Notes under the pieces: generated by a model
Told to the model about the DNA's origin: nothing
What the model saw: only the letters and a program-made list of their open reading frames with translations
Database searches by the model: none
In this document: positions 2,836 through 8,071 of the stretch, piece after piece
How the letters are laid out: each line of letters begins with the position of its first letter
How positions within the stretch are numbered: position 1 is the stretch's first letter
Translations under genes and position numbers: made by a program
NCBI GenBank assembly: GCA_028281535.1
Contig: JANQJS010000062.1
Location: 1-57,697, forward strand
DNA from: Sedimentisphaerales bacterium
GTDB taxonomy: Bacteria > Planctomycetota > Phycisphaerae > Sedimentisphaerales > SM23-30
Reading direction: 5' to 3'
DNA: 57,697 nucleotides

Positions 2836-3678
2836 TTACAAGTTTTTCCAGAAATCTTTGGAAAAATGTCCAGAATAGACGAATTCAACACTTCCAGTCA
2901 TCCAAACGTCACCAGATAATTCTATTTGAATCCCAATTTTACCACCTGGCATCCTTACGGTTACATCAGAATCAACCAAACCTAATTGATATGCTGCACT
3001 TGCCGCTGCGCAGCTACTTGAGCCTGATGCCAAAGTATAACCTGCTCCACGCTCCCAAATCTCAATTTGAATGGTCTTGTGGTCAATCACTTTGAGCAAT
3101 TGCACATTAATTCGCTCAGGAAAATCAGCATGCGATTCAATGTGTGGCCCTAGTTTGCAGGCCAGCTCTTTTGATATTTCCTCCATTGGAATGACGCAAT
3201 GTGGATTTCCGATTGACAAACAAGTTACCTGATAGTTTTTTTCATTTACTACTAATGATTGACCGACCATTTCTCTTTTGTCGCCAGTAACTGGAATCTT
3301 TGTGCTATCGAAAGTAACTTTACCCATATTGATTTTGATGAGTGAACCGTCATTATTGAGTACTTCTACATCGACCAAACCGCCAATCGTTTGAATGGAA
3401 AATGTTTTTCCTTTTACCAAATTATTTTCATACAAATATCGTGAAAAAATCCGCAATCCGTTGCCACTTTTTTGGGCCTGGCTACCATCTGGATTGTAAA
3501 TTTTCAAACCCAACTTGCCATCGATATCGATTGGTCCAACCAATATACCATCTGAGCCAATGCCAAAATGACGATCACAAATCAACCGAATTTTTTCTAG
3601 CGATAAATCAGATAAACCCTCCATCGGATTTATCACAATATAATCATTCCCCAAAGCTTGATACTTGTAAAATTTCAT
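2836..3678 (-). CDS. DapF-family epimerase homologue lacking both catalytic cysteines
   Basis: The fold is clearly that of diaminopimelate epimerase: an N-terminal MKFYKYQALGNDYIVI, then NPDGS, GNG, IGNPHCV and ERGAGYTLASG in the expected order, 280 aa in total. In true DapF the two catalytic Cys sit in QCGNG and ACGTG. Here those positions read KSGNG (Ser71) and ASGSS (Ser218), so both halves of the thiol pair are Ser. The enzyme may have a different reaction, be inactive, or bind a ligand. The name dapF is therefore withheld. Its ATG directly abuts the TAA of the beta-propeller gene, with no Shine-Dalgarno sequence visible, so translation is probably coupled. Confidence 0.9.
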   Translation of the reverse strand: MKFYKYQALGNDYIVINPMEGLSDLSLEKIRLICDRHFGIGSDGILVGPIDIDGKLGLKIYNPDGSQAQKSGNGLRIFSRYLYENNLVKGKTFSIQTIGGLVDVEVLNNDGSLIKINMGKVTFDSTKIPVTGDKREMVGQSLVVNEKNYQVTCLSIGNPHCVIPMEEISKELACKLGPHIESHADFPERINVQLLKVIDHKTIQIEIWERGAGYTLASGSSSCAAASAAYQLGLVDSDVTVRMPGGKIGIQIELSGDVWMTGSVEFVYSGHFSKDFWKNL

Positions 3679-4788
3679 TTAAAAATACTTCACGCAAAAA
3701 ATGGGTGGTAGATTTGTGGACAATGTTTGCCAAGAGTCGCCTTGGTTGGTTGTGTACCAGAGTGAGCCTGTAGTGCTTCCCATAATGAGGTTGTTTCCTG
3801 AGTCATCAACATCAAGACTATGGCGGTAAATAATATCGTAAGCATGTTCTTGGGGCAAACCATCGGTTAAAATCTCAAACGACTTGCCGCCATCTTTGGT
3901 TCGTGTGACGACGAATTTTCCATCGACTGGAATTCTTAATTCGTCTTTAATCGCAGGCACAAACCAGGCTGTATTGGGATCGTTTGGATCAACGGCAACG
4001 ACAAATCCAAATACGGATGGTTTTACATCTTCGATTTCCTGCCAGGATTTTGAGCCATCGGTTGATTTAAAAATACCGTTGTGATGCTGTGACCAAAGGC
4101 AATCAGGTTGCGATTGACATTGCACAATAATATGTGGATCTTGACCATCGGGTATATTGGCCATCTCAGGTGGTAGATATGCGGCACGCATACCATGAGC
4201 GGCTTGTTGCCACGATTTTCCACCATCAGTTGTCATCATGACGCCACCACAGGAAATACCAACGCGAATGCAGTTGGCATCACGCGGGTCTACACAAATG
4301 GAATGGATACCTGGAAAATCGTAACCACCACCCACCCATTTTTTTCTCGATTCGTGATTCCACAATGATTCAACTAAATTCCATGTTTGGCCATGATCGG
4401 GTGAATGAAATAATCCGCCGGGAATAGTGCCACACCAAAGTGCGCCTTCATTTCTCGGATCGATGGCTAGCGACCAGATCATTTCCAGATTCCAGGGGAT
4501 TTCAATTTGTCGAACGGGACAAATAATGGCTTCAGCATCTTCTGGCTTAGGTGGATAAGCTGGTACGGTAATTTCCTGCCAACTTTTGCCTAGGTCTGTG
4601 CTGCGATGCAATTTGTTGCCAAAATGACCATGGCTCAATGCGGCATACATCGATTTATCTCTAGGATCAAAAAGTACTATTGGTACTTGTTCACCTAAAA
4701 AAACGGTTTGACTGATTTGCCAGGAATCATCATTTTTTTGGTAAATAAAAAGTCCTTTGCGTGTGCCGACCATAAATTTATCTGCCAT
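3679..4788 (-). CDS. BNR/Asp-box beta-propeller protein (sialidase-like fold)
   Basis: The 369-residue protein carries six Asp-box motifs of the form S/T-x-D-x-G-x-S/T-W or F: STDLGKSW, SPDHGQTW, TTDGGKSW, STDGSKSW, TKDGGKSF and TTNQGDSW. This predicts a six- or seven-bladed propeller like sialidases or sortilin. Databases often label this kind of protein exo-alpha-sialidase or glycosyl hydrolase, but I see no sialidase arginine triad or FRIP motif. There is no signal peptide, so it is probably cytoplasmic. It starts one base after the stop of the MoaD-like gene, and its ribosome site GGAGGA is made of the two glycine codons that end that protein. A stoichiometric pairing of the two products is likely. 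Confidence 0.88.
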   Translation of the reverse strand: MADKFMVGTRKGLFIYQKNDDSWQISQTVFLGEQVPIVLFDPRDKSMYAALSHGHFGNKLHRSTDLGKSWQEITVPAYPPKPEDAEAIICPVRQIEIPWNLEMIWSLAIDPRNEGALWCGTIPGGLFHSPDHGQTWNLVESLWNHESRKKWVGGGYDFPGIHSICVDPRDANCIRVGISCGGVMMTTDGGKSWQQAAHGMRAAYLPPEMANIPDGQDPHIIVQCQSQPDCLWSQHHNGIFKSTDGSKSWQEIEDVKPSVFGFVVAVDPNDPNTAWFVPAIKDELRIPVDGKFVVTRTKDGGKSFEILTDGLPQEHAYDIIYRHSLDVDDSGNNLIMGSTTGSLWYTTNQGDSWQTLSTNLPPIFCVKYF

Positions 4789-4789
4789 G

Positions 4790-5059
4790 TTATCCTCCTG
4801 AAAGTGCTTGCATAATATAAATATTATCTTCCGATTGAATTTTGTCCGTTAACGTTTTTCGATCTTTCGCAGCTTGATCATTGATAAATATATTTATATG
4901 TTTACGTACTTGTCCTTGGTCATCTAATATGTAGCTTCGAGCATTCGGATTATTGTTAAAAACATTTTCCAAAACATCATGCAATGATTGGCCATCAACT
5001 GACATTGGTGGGCATTCAATCAATCGCTGAATATTTTCTGTAAATGTTACGATAGCCAT
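4790..5059 (-). CDS. MoaD/ThiS-family ubiquitin-like protein with C-terminal Gly-Gly
   Basis: This 89-residue beta-grasp protein ends in ALSGG. The exposed terminal diglycine is needed in this family for adenylation and thiocarboxylation or conjugation. Internal features such as VDGQSLHDVLENVF, HINIFINDQ and EDNIYIMQALSGG match MoaD/ThiS sulfur carriers. No molybdopterin, thiamine or E1-like gene is nearby. The tight coupling with the Asp-box propeller gene suggests a dedicated partner, but the job is unknown. The start ATG abuts the TAA of the upstream gene (TAAATG), with GGAGAA in that gene's last codons as ribosome site. Confidence 0.9.
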   Translation of the reverse strand: MAIVTFTENIQRLIECPPMSVDGQSLHDVLENVFNNNPNARSYILDDQGQVRKHINIFINDQAAKDRKTLTDKIQSEDNIYIMQALSGG

Positions 5060-5464
5060 TTATTCTCCATAGAATTTGTATCGAATTTGAAGATTGCCGT
5101 TGGTGATATTTTCGGGTTGATAATTTATTTGGTACGAAGATTCTGTCCATGGGCCTCCGATTTTTAAATCGATGGGGCCTGAACTTAAAATGTGTTCTTC
5201 GGAAGATTCTTTTTCAGGGTTGGTGACTAACTTGGCGGTGCCATCCAGTTGGCCAGTTAAGTGAATAACAATGCCAGAGGCAAACCGGTTATTGCCTAGA
5301 TCGTTTTTGGTTAATGTGATTAATTGCGTTTCAGATAGATTTTCGACGCTGAGTGTATGGGCGTTTTTTTCAAAATCATTTTCGTAAAGATGTTTCACGA
5401 TGGTTGGCCAGAACCAAACGGCGGTAAATGCTAAAAAACCAATAATAAAAACAAACTTTTGCAT
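5060..5464 (-). CDS. Small membrane-anchored protein of unknown function
   Basis: The product (134 aa from the ATG at 5464) has one N-terminal hydrophobic helix at about residues 3-22 and a hydrophilic, beta-rich remainder that should lie outside the cytoplasmic membrane. I do not recognise the family. The start is supported by AAGGAAG six bases upstream; an in-frame TTG one codon earlier is less likely. The gene sits between a secreted transglutaminase and the MoaD-like gene with almost no spacing on either side, so it belongs to the same transcript. Its last codons supply the ribosome site of the next gene. Confidence 0.8.
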   Translation of the reverse strand: MQKFVFIIGFLAFTAVWFWPTIVKHLYENDFEKNAHTLSVENLSETQLITLTKNDLGNNRFASGIVIHLTGQLDGTAKLVTNPEKESSEEHILSSGPIDLKIGGPWTESSYQINYQPENITNGNLQIRYKFYGE

Positions 5465-5473
5465 CAATCTTCC

Positions 5474-6934
5474 TTACTTTCTAATTTGAATATCTTTGAT
5501 TTCAAATCGGCCTCCGTTTATGCCCATGCCTATAAAATCTTCGGGGGCGCCATCACCGGTGCTGATAGTAATATGAGCGGGTGTGTAACTTCCCAATATT
5601 CCAGTTGCATCTAGGCCAATCCATTGGTCATTAATAAATACTTGTGTCCAAACATGTCCCCCAAATATATTTTCATGACCTAAAAATTCTGTCGCATACA
5701 CATATCCGACAGCAACCCGAGAGGGGATTCCAACAGCTTGACAGAGTGCTGCAGTTAGCACGGCAGATTCAGAGCAATCGCCTTGTGGATGCTCAATGAT
5801 ATCAGACGCCGTTGCAAAGACAACTGATAAGTCAATTTTTTCTATATAGTTGAAAACGAAAGATTCAATTTTTTTCGCAGCTTCGCCGGCATCTTTGGTG
5901 TTTCCAATAACTTTCTGAGCCAGTTGGCGAACTTTTGCATGATCACTTTGAATGAATCTTGATGGCTTAAGTGCTTTGAGTGCTTCTGGGTTGTTGCCTT
6001 TATATGGAATGGATTGTCCTTTTGATAACATGGTTGGGCTGACTTGTAACATGATTTGCTGGTCCCTTTGGCCAAGTATTTTTTGATTATTATCCTGGTG
6101 GATTTGCCAAGGACGATCGTCTGTTAATTGCAACTTGTATGCTATCGATTTAATATCATTTATATTCTTTATCTCTTTAGGACTTTTTATGAAAAATTTT
6201 CCCAATATTTCTTTGGATGAATTTGGGCTTAACGCAATTTCTTTTTCGCAAGCGATTAAATTAAAATTCATTCCCATTTGGCTAATCGTCATCTTTAAAG
6301 GTTTATAATTGTCATCGAGGTAATTGGACGATTTGTAAATACCGCTTGGAAAATACATATTAATATCCACTCGTGTAAGCTCTTTGCTTTGCCCTAACAG
6401 ATCTACAGATTCTTTGCTTCTTACAATGACTTTTGACGAGACTGTTTGCATCAAATTAGGCGTAAAAAAATCAACGTTTAATTTGAGTCCTTCTTTTAAT
6501 GTTGTTTCTTTCGCCTTCTGTAGCATGCCTTCAACCATCACAGTGTTTTCTGTAAATGGTATTATTTTTGTTTGTGTTATGCCTCCCGTTTTGATGGTGA
6601 CGACCATTTCATTCTTGTCGTTCATCTTGCCTCGGCTTTGTACGCTAGAGAATCCCATATCCTGATCTAATTCAAATGCAATAGGCTTGCCGTCAAGTGT
6701 TTCGATTGAAAGTTCACTGACTTTCAAGCTTGCTTGCATGTCGCCACGCATCATAGAAAAATGTGAGGAATCTATTGTATGTACCTGGCCATTTTTTATT
6801 TCACGGCGATTGTAGGCATGTCCCACTTTTTGATCACCAATATATAGTGCGTACCAGATTTCGTCGACCTCAGCCGCAATTAACGTTGATGACGTAAAAC
6901 ATAGAAATAAATAAATACATATATTTTTTAGCAT
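5474..6934 (-). CDS. Secreted transglutaminase-like cysteine protein
   Basis: The N-terminus is a signal peptide (MLKNICIYLFLCFTSSTLIAAE). Residues 25-300 form a long beta-rich region and residues 325-460 hold a transglutaminase core. The triad is visible: Cys387 in GDCSES, His427 in GGHVW and Asp442 in GLDATG. Bacterial members usually act as peptidases or cross-linkers of surface polymers, so a periplasmic or surface role is expected; the substrate is not evident. The gene follows the PH-domain gene by 12 bases with a GAGGT ribosome site and leads into the small membrane protein gene, forming one operon. Confidence 0.92.
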   Translation of the reverse strand: MLKNICIYLFLCFTSSTLIAAEVDEIWYALYIGDQKVGHAYNRREIKNGQVHTIDSSHFSMMRGDMQASLKVSELSIETLDGKPIAFELDQDMGFSSVQSRGKMNDKNEMVVTIKTGGITQTKIIPFTENTVMVEGMLQKAKETTLKEGLKLNVDFFTPNLMQTVSSKVIVRSKESVDLLGQSKELTRVDINMYFPSGIYKSSNYLDDNYKPLKMTISQMGMNFNLIACEKEIALSPNSSKEILGKFFIKSPKEIKNINDIKSIAYKLQLTDDRPWQIHQDNNQKILGQRDQQIMLQVSPTMLSKGQSIPYKGNNPEALKALKPSRFIQSDHAKVRQLAQKVIGNTKDAGEAAKKIESFVFNYIEKIDLSVVFATASDIIEHPQGDCSESAVLTAALCQAVGIPSRVAVGYVYATEFLGHENIFGGHVWTQVFINDQWIGLDATGILGSYTPAHITISTGDGAPEDFIGMGINGGRFEIKDIQIRK

Positions 6935-6946
6935 TGTGTACCTCGA

Positions 6947-7468
6947 CTAAATATTTTCATTCTCTGTTATTGTTTTAACGATTATCTCGTGTGTCCCTAG
7001 TGGTTTTGGGCATAGGTGCCAAATGGCTTCTACTCCGCCGGTGCCTGCGGTGGTGAAGGCGATGTTGGCTAGGCCGAAAAACCTTAGTAGTAGTGGGAAG
7101 ACCTGAAAGGTGTTTTGGATTTTGCTGAGTTTGCATTGGAAGACCACGACCGTCAGGACGCCTGAGGTTTGTATGATTCTTCGGTCCGTTAGTACGTAGG
7201 CTCTGCTGGCCCATTGGAGTAGTGCAATGCAAACTCTGATGAAAATCGTTATGCCGCAACCAATGATCACATAGGTGCTCACGGGAGGTGATGTAAAGAA
7301 CATGGCAAGTAATGCCATGACTAAACAGATAGCGCCTATTCTCAACGAGAAAAATAAGACAAGCCATAGCGATGGCTTGATGGCGAAGATCACCTGTTCG
7401 TTCTGATCCAATAGTGAGTCAGGGATGAGCTTGACGGCCTTTTGGTTTTCTGTCAGGTCTTTTCCCAT
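6947..7468 (-). CDS. Membrane protein with bacterial PH domain (YdbS-like)
   Basis: The 173-residue protein has a short cytoplasmic start, then two adjacent membrane helices (about residues 33-52 and 57-78). A bPH2-type domain begins at RAYVLTDRRIIQTSGVL and continues through KLSKIQNTFQVFPLL, a pattern typical of YdbS/YdbT-like proteins. The role of these domains is poorly known; some take part in envelope stress or membrane-complex assembly. It is the first gene of the minus-strand operon that reaches the DapF-like gene. I see no clear Shine-Dalgarno sequence before the ATG. Confidence 0.82.
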   Translation of the reverse strand: MGKDLTENQKAVKLIPDSLLDQNEQVIFAIKPSLWLVLFFSLRIGAICLVMALLAMFFTSPPVSTYVIIGCGITIFIRVCIALLQWASRAYVLTDRRIIQTSGVLTVVVFQCKLSKIQNTFQVFPLLLRFFGLANIAFTTAGTGGVEAIWHLCPKPLGTHEIIVKTITENENI

Positions 7469-7561
7469 ATGTCTTTATTATAGTTTAATTTATTTCATAT
7501 TTCATGCTCCTTTCTTGGGTTTGTTTGTTAGGTTGTTTGGGTAGGATGGATTAAATAAATT

Positions 7562-7605
7562 CACCATCCCCATTTCGCCTTTGGCGAACTGAGGCTGCCA
7601 CCCGG
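7562..7605 (+). repeat. Module A hairpin repeat, copy 1
   Basis: This is one of four copies of a ~42-base unit that starts CACCATCCCC and ends GCTGCCACCC. The centre is TTCGCC-TTT-GGCGAA, a perfect 6-base-pair hairpin. The other copies read TTCACC/GGTGAA, so a base pair changed on both sides together (A-T to G-C). That covariation supports selection for the hairpin. This copy has no module B next to it. Confidence 0.85.
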
Positions 7606-7635
7606 TTTATTCCATTTGCTTGGGTGGGCTTTTTT
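7597..7635 (+). terminator. Terminator-like hairpin formed by the end of module A
   Basis: GCC-ACCC at 7597-7603 pairs with GGGT-GGGC at 7622-7629 with one bulged G, and is followed by TTTTTT at 7630-7635. It would stop plus-strand transcription, yet no plus-strand gene lies just upstream. It may insulate metY from readthrough or be fortuitous. Confidence 0.4.
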
Positions 7636-7821
7636 GATGCTAAACTCTTTTTTTTGGGGTACACTCCGTTGTGTGGTCCCTCTATATAAGGGGGCAAACC
7701 TCACAAATGCACCGATTTTTGAACATTTTTTTGGTAGTGGTGTATATAACTACTTGTAAGAGCAGAAGAAAAAAATTTGATGTTTTTTTATTTTTGATTT
7801 TAGGTACTACACAAACTGCAC

Positions 7822-7931
7822 CAGGCATTCGCCTGTTTTACCGCCGCGACAGACATTCGTCTGGATTACCGCCGCGATTGTTTTTTGGGAACCCGGCTCC
7901 GTTGTCGCCTGCGTTGTTGGCGAGATATGTT
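7822..7931 (+). repeat. Module B palindromic repeat, copy 1
   Basis: The unit begins with the palindrome CAGGCATTCGCCTG. It continues through ACCGCCG and the shared core GGGAACCCGGCTCCGTTG, and ends with a second hairpin whose stem is CGCC/GGCG before GCGAGATA. Compared with copy 2 it carries an internal duplication of the ATTCGTCTGGATTACCGCCG kind. Module A copy 2 follows 49 bases later in the same order as at 11 kb. Confidence 0.75.
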
Positions 7932-7980
7932 TGAGAAGGGTTAGAGGTAAAAAGTGAAAAAGTATAAATGGTTTGAAAGG

Positions 7981-8023
7981 CACCATCCCCATTTCACCTT
8001 CGGTGAACTGAGGCTGCCACCCG
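7981..8023 (+). repeat. Module A hairpin repeat, copy 2
   Basis: The unit runs CACCATCCCC, then TTCACC-TTC-GGTGAA, then CTGAGGCTGCCACCC. It ends 48 bases before the metY start codon, nearly the same arrangement as copy 3 before deoC. On the minus strand the outer CCTCA/TGGGG also pairs using one G-U, so the hairpin is longer as minus-strand RNA. Confidence 0.85.
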
Positions 8024-8071
8024 ATGTGGGAATGATGAATGAACAACAAATATAAATAAGGAAGATTTATT

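Follow-up and report, generated by a model that had tools for sequence, protein, structure and literature searches.

The window, a 57,697-nucleotide stretch of DNA from a Sedimentisphaerales bacterium, harbors a gene from a deep, distinct clade of diaminopimelate (DAP) epimerase (DapF), in which two serines probably act as acid and base in place of the catalytic cysteine pair. DapF is the textbook two-base epimerase with a Cys/Cys pair, whose thiols are taken as essential and are targeted by inhibitors. Considering all readings, a new catalytic variant of DapF is the likeliest. Whether the clade comprises a thiol-free DAP epimerase employing two serines in two-base proton transfer, which is the sole one in cultured species, among them Opitutus terrae, and which evolved once as an oxidation-proof DapF, appears to us an evenly balanced proposition. 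In the literature searched, mostly outside subscription journals, we found neither a published description of a Ser/Ser DapF nor an assay of any Ser/Ser member.

Serines at both catalytic positions of a DapF homolog

The gene and the two codons of interest are located in the window as follows:

2836..3678, minus strand: Ser/Ser DapF homolog of 280 aa, ATG start, stop codon at 2836-2838
3466..3468, minus strand: codon AGT for Ser71, replacing the first catalytic Cys (KSGNG aligned with MCGNG)
3025..3027, minus strand: codon TCA for Ser218, replacing the second catalytic Cys (ASGSS aligned with ACGTG)

The 280-aa protein matches the NCBIfam DapF model TIGR00652 with 246.7 bits over residues 1-272, the cut-off being 114.65 bits, and PF01678 matches in both of its halves. 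Divergent members of the Ser/Ser clade exceed the TIGR00652 cut-off as well. Alignment of the window protein with solved DapFs is colinear (top match 5ha4, E 8e-55), and Ser71 and Ser218 correspond to Cys73 and Cys217, respectively, in the numbering of the H. influenzae DapF. Judged by the classical hallmark of DapF, which is the catalytic Cys pair, the window protein is not a standard DapF.

The AlphaFold2 model of the window protein (mean pLDDT 91.9) displays the two similar alpha/beta domains of the DapF fold, and the best PDB matches to this model are all DAP epimerases, with TM values of up to 0.92. Helices 72-84 and 219-231 of the model start directly after Ser71 and Ser218, so that each serine lies at the N-terminal end of a helix, which is the location of the catalytic cysteines in DapF-fold enzymes. 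Weaker structural matches were obtained with PhzF (11-14% identity) and hydroxyproline dehydratase. The PhzF profile did not match the window protein, and profile searches yielded no proline racemase or 4-hydroxyproline epimerase family, for which the structural matches show 12-14% identity, far below DapF.

Alanine mutants of N15, N74, N85, N159, N194, E212, R213, and T223 of the C. glutamicum DapF are nearly inactive (PMC5296763). As indicated by the alignment, the matching residues of the window protein, N11, N62, N73, N158, N191, E209, R210, and S220, are conserved across the clade, so that all eight substrate residues tested by mutagenesis are retained, with S220 standing for T223; the DapFs of E. 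coli and H. influenzae likewise have Ser instead of this Thr (PMC5296763). Therefore, it is the catalytic pair that has changed, and not the binding site. The alignment, the profile match, and the kept substrate residues thus confirm the preliminary description, which had noted serines at both catalytic cysteine positions within an intact scaffold.

In the alignment of the Ser/Ser set we did not observe a conserved Cys in the columns near Ser71 or Ser218, which rules out a shifted cysteine as the catalyst. Two cysteines are conserved in this set, at positions 34 and 161, and both sites are often Cys in canonical proteins too. A pseudogene or a sequencing error was likewise ruled out: the reading frame is intact, the window protein departs from the rest of the Ser/Ser set in only two of 73 highly conserved columns, and the double change is present in 69 other sequences. 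The Ser/Ser change is neither chance nor decay.

The Ser/Ser proteins form one clade

Relatives were drawn from public genomes, a viral collection, and plasmids. The resulting 175 DapF sequences comprise 70 with Ser/Ser and 105 with Cys/Cys, and none of them is mixed. In a tree calculated without the two catalytic sites and the three columns on either side of each, the Ser/Ser set constitutes one side of a branch that has a support of 100/99 and is present in 200/200 bootstrap trees. The earlier supposition of a defined subfamily has thus held up in a clade test, which indicates a single origin of the double-Ser form.

The clade is marked by the signature P63, K70, I77, F78, Q193, A212, Y214, and S221. 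The residue preceding the first catalytic site is Lys in 97% of the Ser/Ser proteins versus Met in 98% of the Cys/Cys proteins. When compared with the known DapFs of H. influenzae, E. coli, and C. glutamicum (TIGR00652/PF01678), the Ser/Ser proteins resemble them in fold, in length, in sequence (34-35% identity), in the eight substrate residues, and in being the only DapF in most carriers; in contrast, they differ in both catalytic residues, in the Lys for Met before the first site, and in P63, I77, F78, Q193, and Y214. Carriers are found among the Planctomycetota (Phycisphaerales), the Verrucomicrobiota including Opitutae, the Lentisphaerae, and the Bacillota, together with one deltaproteobacterium.

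Serine is invariant at both sites in the clade, and at each site serine codons of the AGY as well as the TCN family are in use, which suggests selection on serine itself. A Lys70-Ser71 dyad that lowers the pKa of the serine was considered and is only suggestive, given that rare members carry Gln, Arg, or Ile at position 70; a role of Lys70 in the activation of Ser71 is thus speculation.

In addition, Ser/Ser homologs were observed on mobile elements. On a contig classed as viral (L072, 2923-3768), a Ser/Ser DapF gene is located slightly downstream of a serine recombinase gene, an arrangement that suggests mobility of dapF in Bacillota. The Agrobacterium vitis plasmid pRvVAT039a (L073, 7250-8849) carries a divergent Ser/Ser homolog with the motifs SGNG and SSGSG, surrounded by genes for the iron response regulator IrrA, a fatty acid desaturase, an iron-containing redox enzyme, and a 2OG-Fe dioxygenase; this homolog may be a specialized racemase. 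A phage or plasmid origin was rejected, as the matches in the phage collection are all at most about 35% identical and these two members give no general pattern.

Most carriers have no DapF besides the Ser/Ser protein

A search with TIGR00652 revealed no other DapF in 54 of 61 Ser/Ser genomes, a sole-copy set that comprises some draft assemblies and also single-contig genomes. A second match was obtained in seven genomes including the window genome, with those in G562 and G668 counted by profile match. In a sample of 240 Verrucomicrobiota genomes, 49 encode a Ser/Ser protein, and 46 of these are devoid of a second TIGR00652 match; outside this sample, Ser/Ser alone was found in eight more genomes. 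In the rest of the sample, DapF is present in 169 of 191 genomes, and all 30 sequences that were read are Cys/Cys. Fisher's test for the displacement between Ser/Ser and other DapFs gave a p of about 1e-28, a value that overstates independence because the genomes are related.

DapL yields LL-DAP, Ddh would bypass the epimerase, and the DNPR motif in MurE is the mark of meso-DAP ligases. Among the sole-copy genomes, 26 have a DapL that scores above the curated cut-off, and LysA was present in 13 of 14 genomes. Ddh was found in none of the 14 genomes tested, and control genomes having Ddh were detected by the same search. MurE with the DNPR motif was present in 25 of the 28 genomes examined. All these pathway features are combined in five genomes (G042, G053, G441, G442, and G446, the LysA of the latter being full length and below the curated cut-off). 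The presence of DapL, LysA, and a meso-DAP-type MurE together with the lack of Ddh where tested therefore suggests that the sole-copy genomes need a DAP epimerase, a step that the Ser/Ser protein would probably fill. Consequently, the new role that had initially been proposed for the Ser/Ser form is not favored, given its status as sole DapF, the accompanying DAP pathway genes, and the substrate residues it has kept.

One sole-copy genome (G547) consists of a single contig of 5,957,605 bp and encodes one Ser/Ser DapF and no other, together with DapL and a MurE with the DNPR motif. The genome of O. terrae PB90-1 was published at 5,957,605 bp (PMC5303756), a coincidence that is hard to explain unless both are the same genome. 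DAP has been detected in O. terrae cells by GC/MS at a level about tenfold below that of E. coli, by a method that is not described as separating LL from meso, and TLC of sister strains revealed no DL-DAP (PMC5303756).

Serines as putative acid and base

In the mechanism that we propose, Ser71 and Ser218 would face the substrate from opposite sides and would serve as general acid and base instead of the two cysteines, while the eight residues of the shared DapF pocket would bind the substrate. Many bacteria have no DapF other than this one. In terms of acidity, an alcohol falls far short of a thiol. The greatly reduced turnover of the engineered C67S and C209S variants of the histidine racemase HisR (PMC11602996) moreover speaks against a thiol-free enzyme of the DapF fold, as does the exchange of Cys for Ser by which DapF is stalled in crystallographic work (PMC12039745). 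However, in a native enzyme the surroundings of the serines can have adapted along with them, as suggested by the clade-specific residues.

The related proline racemase superfamily offers a natural precedent, since some of its 4-hydroxyproline epimerases naturally catalyze with one Ser and one Cys (PMC4113996). These enzymes share with the Ser/Ser clade the natural change from Cys to Ser and a related two-domain, cofactor-independent fold, and epimerase activity is kept there; in contrast, the identity is low (about 12-14%), the substrates are of the proline type, and only one Cys is replaced. The Ser/Thr cluster of the same superfamily comprises dehydratases and one member that epimerizes 3-hydroxyproline (PMC4113996). 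The histidine racemases HisR and CntK and the O-ureidoserine racemase DcsC are paralogs with the DapF fold that, according to the literature, have changed their substrate but kept Cys/Cys, unlike the Ser/Ser clade.

Alternatively, the Ser/Ser clade could bind DAP-like amino acids and perform other chemistry, be it another epimerization, a tautomerization, or a dehydration, with the sole-copy genomes using an unrelated epimerase such as the PLP-dependent DapF2. The slowing of DapF-fold racemases by Ser at these positions would fit, as would the dehydratases of the Ser/Thr cluster, the existence of DapF-fold enzymes with different chemistries, among them the more weakly matching PhzF and hydroxyproline dehydratase, and the dioxygenase cluster around the A. 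vitis homolog. There is also a candidate for the missing activity: DapF2, which has been proposed as the DAP epimerase of staphylococci and stands in for the canonical enzyme in genomes lacking it, is a PLP-dependent protein of the alanine racemase family with a fold unrelated to DapF (PMC9026213). We nevertheless regard other chemistry as unlikely. Every DAP-contact residue is retained, in Verrucomicrobiota the Ser/Ser form takes the place of Cys/Cys and vice versa in a nearly one-to-one manner, DapL is encoded in 26 sole-copy genomes, and a second, independent enzyme would be required in each sole-copy lineage.

The Ser/Ser gene in the window genome

The preliminary description had recommended a search for a second, canonical dapF in the same genome, and such a gene, encoding a Cys/Cys protein, is indeed present on contig C59 of the window genome (G000; positions 7155-8048 of locus L050). 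Its product contains an insertion relative to other DapFs. Flagellar-looking genes (flhA, flhB, and flhF-like) and a folD-like gene are located nearby, and the gene lies far from the lysine genes. The window genome also encodes DapL, LysA, and a MurE with the DNPR motif. In this genome, the Ser/Ser copy is thus accessory, beside a canonical DapF. It would be either redundant or used where conditions disfavor thiols. A disulfide bond that shuts the active site can arise in the canonical DapF of C. glutamicum (PMC5296763), and we hypothesize that the Ser/Ser copy of the window organism is used under oxidizing conditions.

The order to which the window organism belongs includes Ser/Ser carriers; the 12 members of its own family that were searched gave canonical-type matches only, or none. 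The tree places the window gene among Ser/Ser genes of Bacillota and of other Phycisphaerales. Because of this placement and the apparent lack of the Ser/Ser form in its own family, the gene was probably acquired horizontally.

Two genes are located upstream of dapF:

3679..4788, minus strand: BNR/sortilin-type beta-propeller (PF15902/PF02012), elsewhere annotated as exo-alpha-sialidase, directly upstream of dapF
4790..5059, minus strand: MoaD/ThiS-like protein with a Gly-Gly end (PF02597 and SAMP1 match)

The intergenic gaps among the three genes measure 0-1 nt. Upstream of moaD, and in the same direction, a gene for a transglutaminase-like secreted protein (5474-6934) precedes one for a 135-aa protein without a family match (5060-5467). 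A search of the 160 remaining genomes of the order did not find the propeller gene (E<=1e-40), and homologs with 50-53% identity are present in records of Pseudomonas, Burkholderia, and Cupriavidus. On three proteobacterial plasmids, from Pseudomonas, Mitsuaria, and Burkholderia, MoaD and propeller genes form a two-gene pair without dapF. Moreover, in the 11 further Ser/Ser loci that were examined, dapF never adjoins this pair. The MoaD-propeller unit looks horizontally acquired. Since the propeller is missing from the rest of the order and the pair stands alone in proteobacteria, this neighborhood says little about dapF, and we rejected the operon as uninformative with regard to dapF function. 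The coupling to a MoaD/propeller operon instead of lysine genes, which had been pointed out at the outset, is therefore correct as a description of gene position and fails as functional evidence, the more so as the canonical dapF is not beside lysine genes either.

It is improbable that the Ser/Ser copy of the window organism, as a special case, took on a new function within the transglutaminase/MoaD/propeller operon. This idea would account for the gapless junction between dapF and the propeller gene, and the canonical DapF would be available for lysine and cell wall synthesis; however, proteobacteria conserve the pair in the absence of dapF, no other examined Ser/Ser locus contains it, and the 71 of 73 clade columns that are kept give no sign of a changed pocket. 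Very improbable, finally, is a catalytically dead DapF kept for binding or regulation: both catalytic thiols are lost, and the E. coli DapF is reported to bind and stimulate RppH in a non-catalytic role (PMC4227774), but the substrate pocket is preserved throughout, 54 sole-copy genomes would then be left without a DAP epimerase, and it is Ser, not any small residue, that is invariant at both sites despite two unrelated codon families.

Implications

If the Ser/Ser proteins were inactive, many Verrucomicrobiota and Planctomycetota would have to contain an unrecognized DAP epimerase. If, on the other hand, the two serines serve as acid and base, the DAP step of the carriers should be insensitive to thiol-reactive and aziridine-type DapF inhibitors and to the disulfide formation known from C. 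glutamicum DapF. The DapF fold could then run an epimerization on alcohols, and the natural comparison of Ser/Ser with Cys/Cys proteins would render testable why such enzymes use cysteine.
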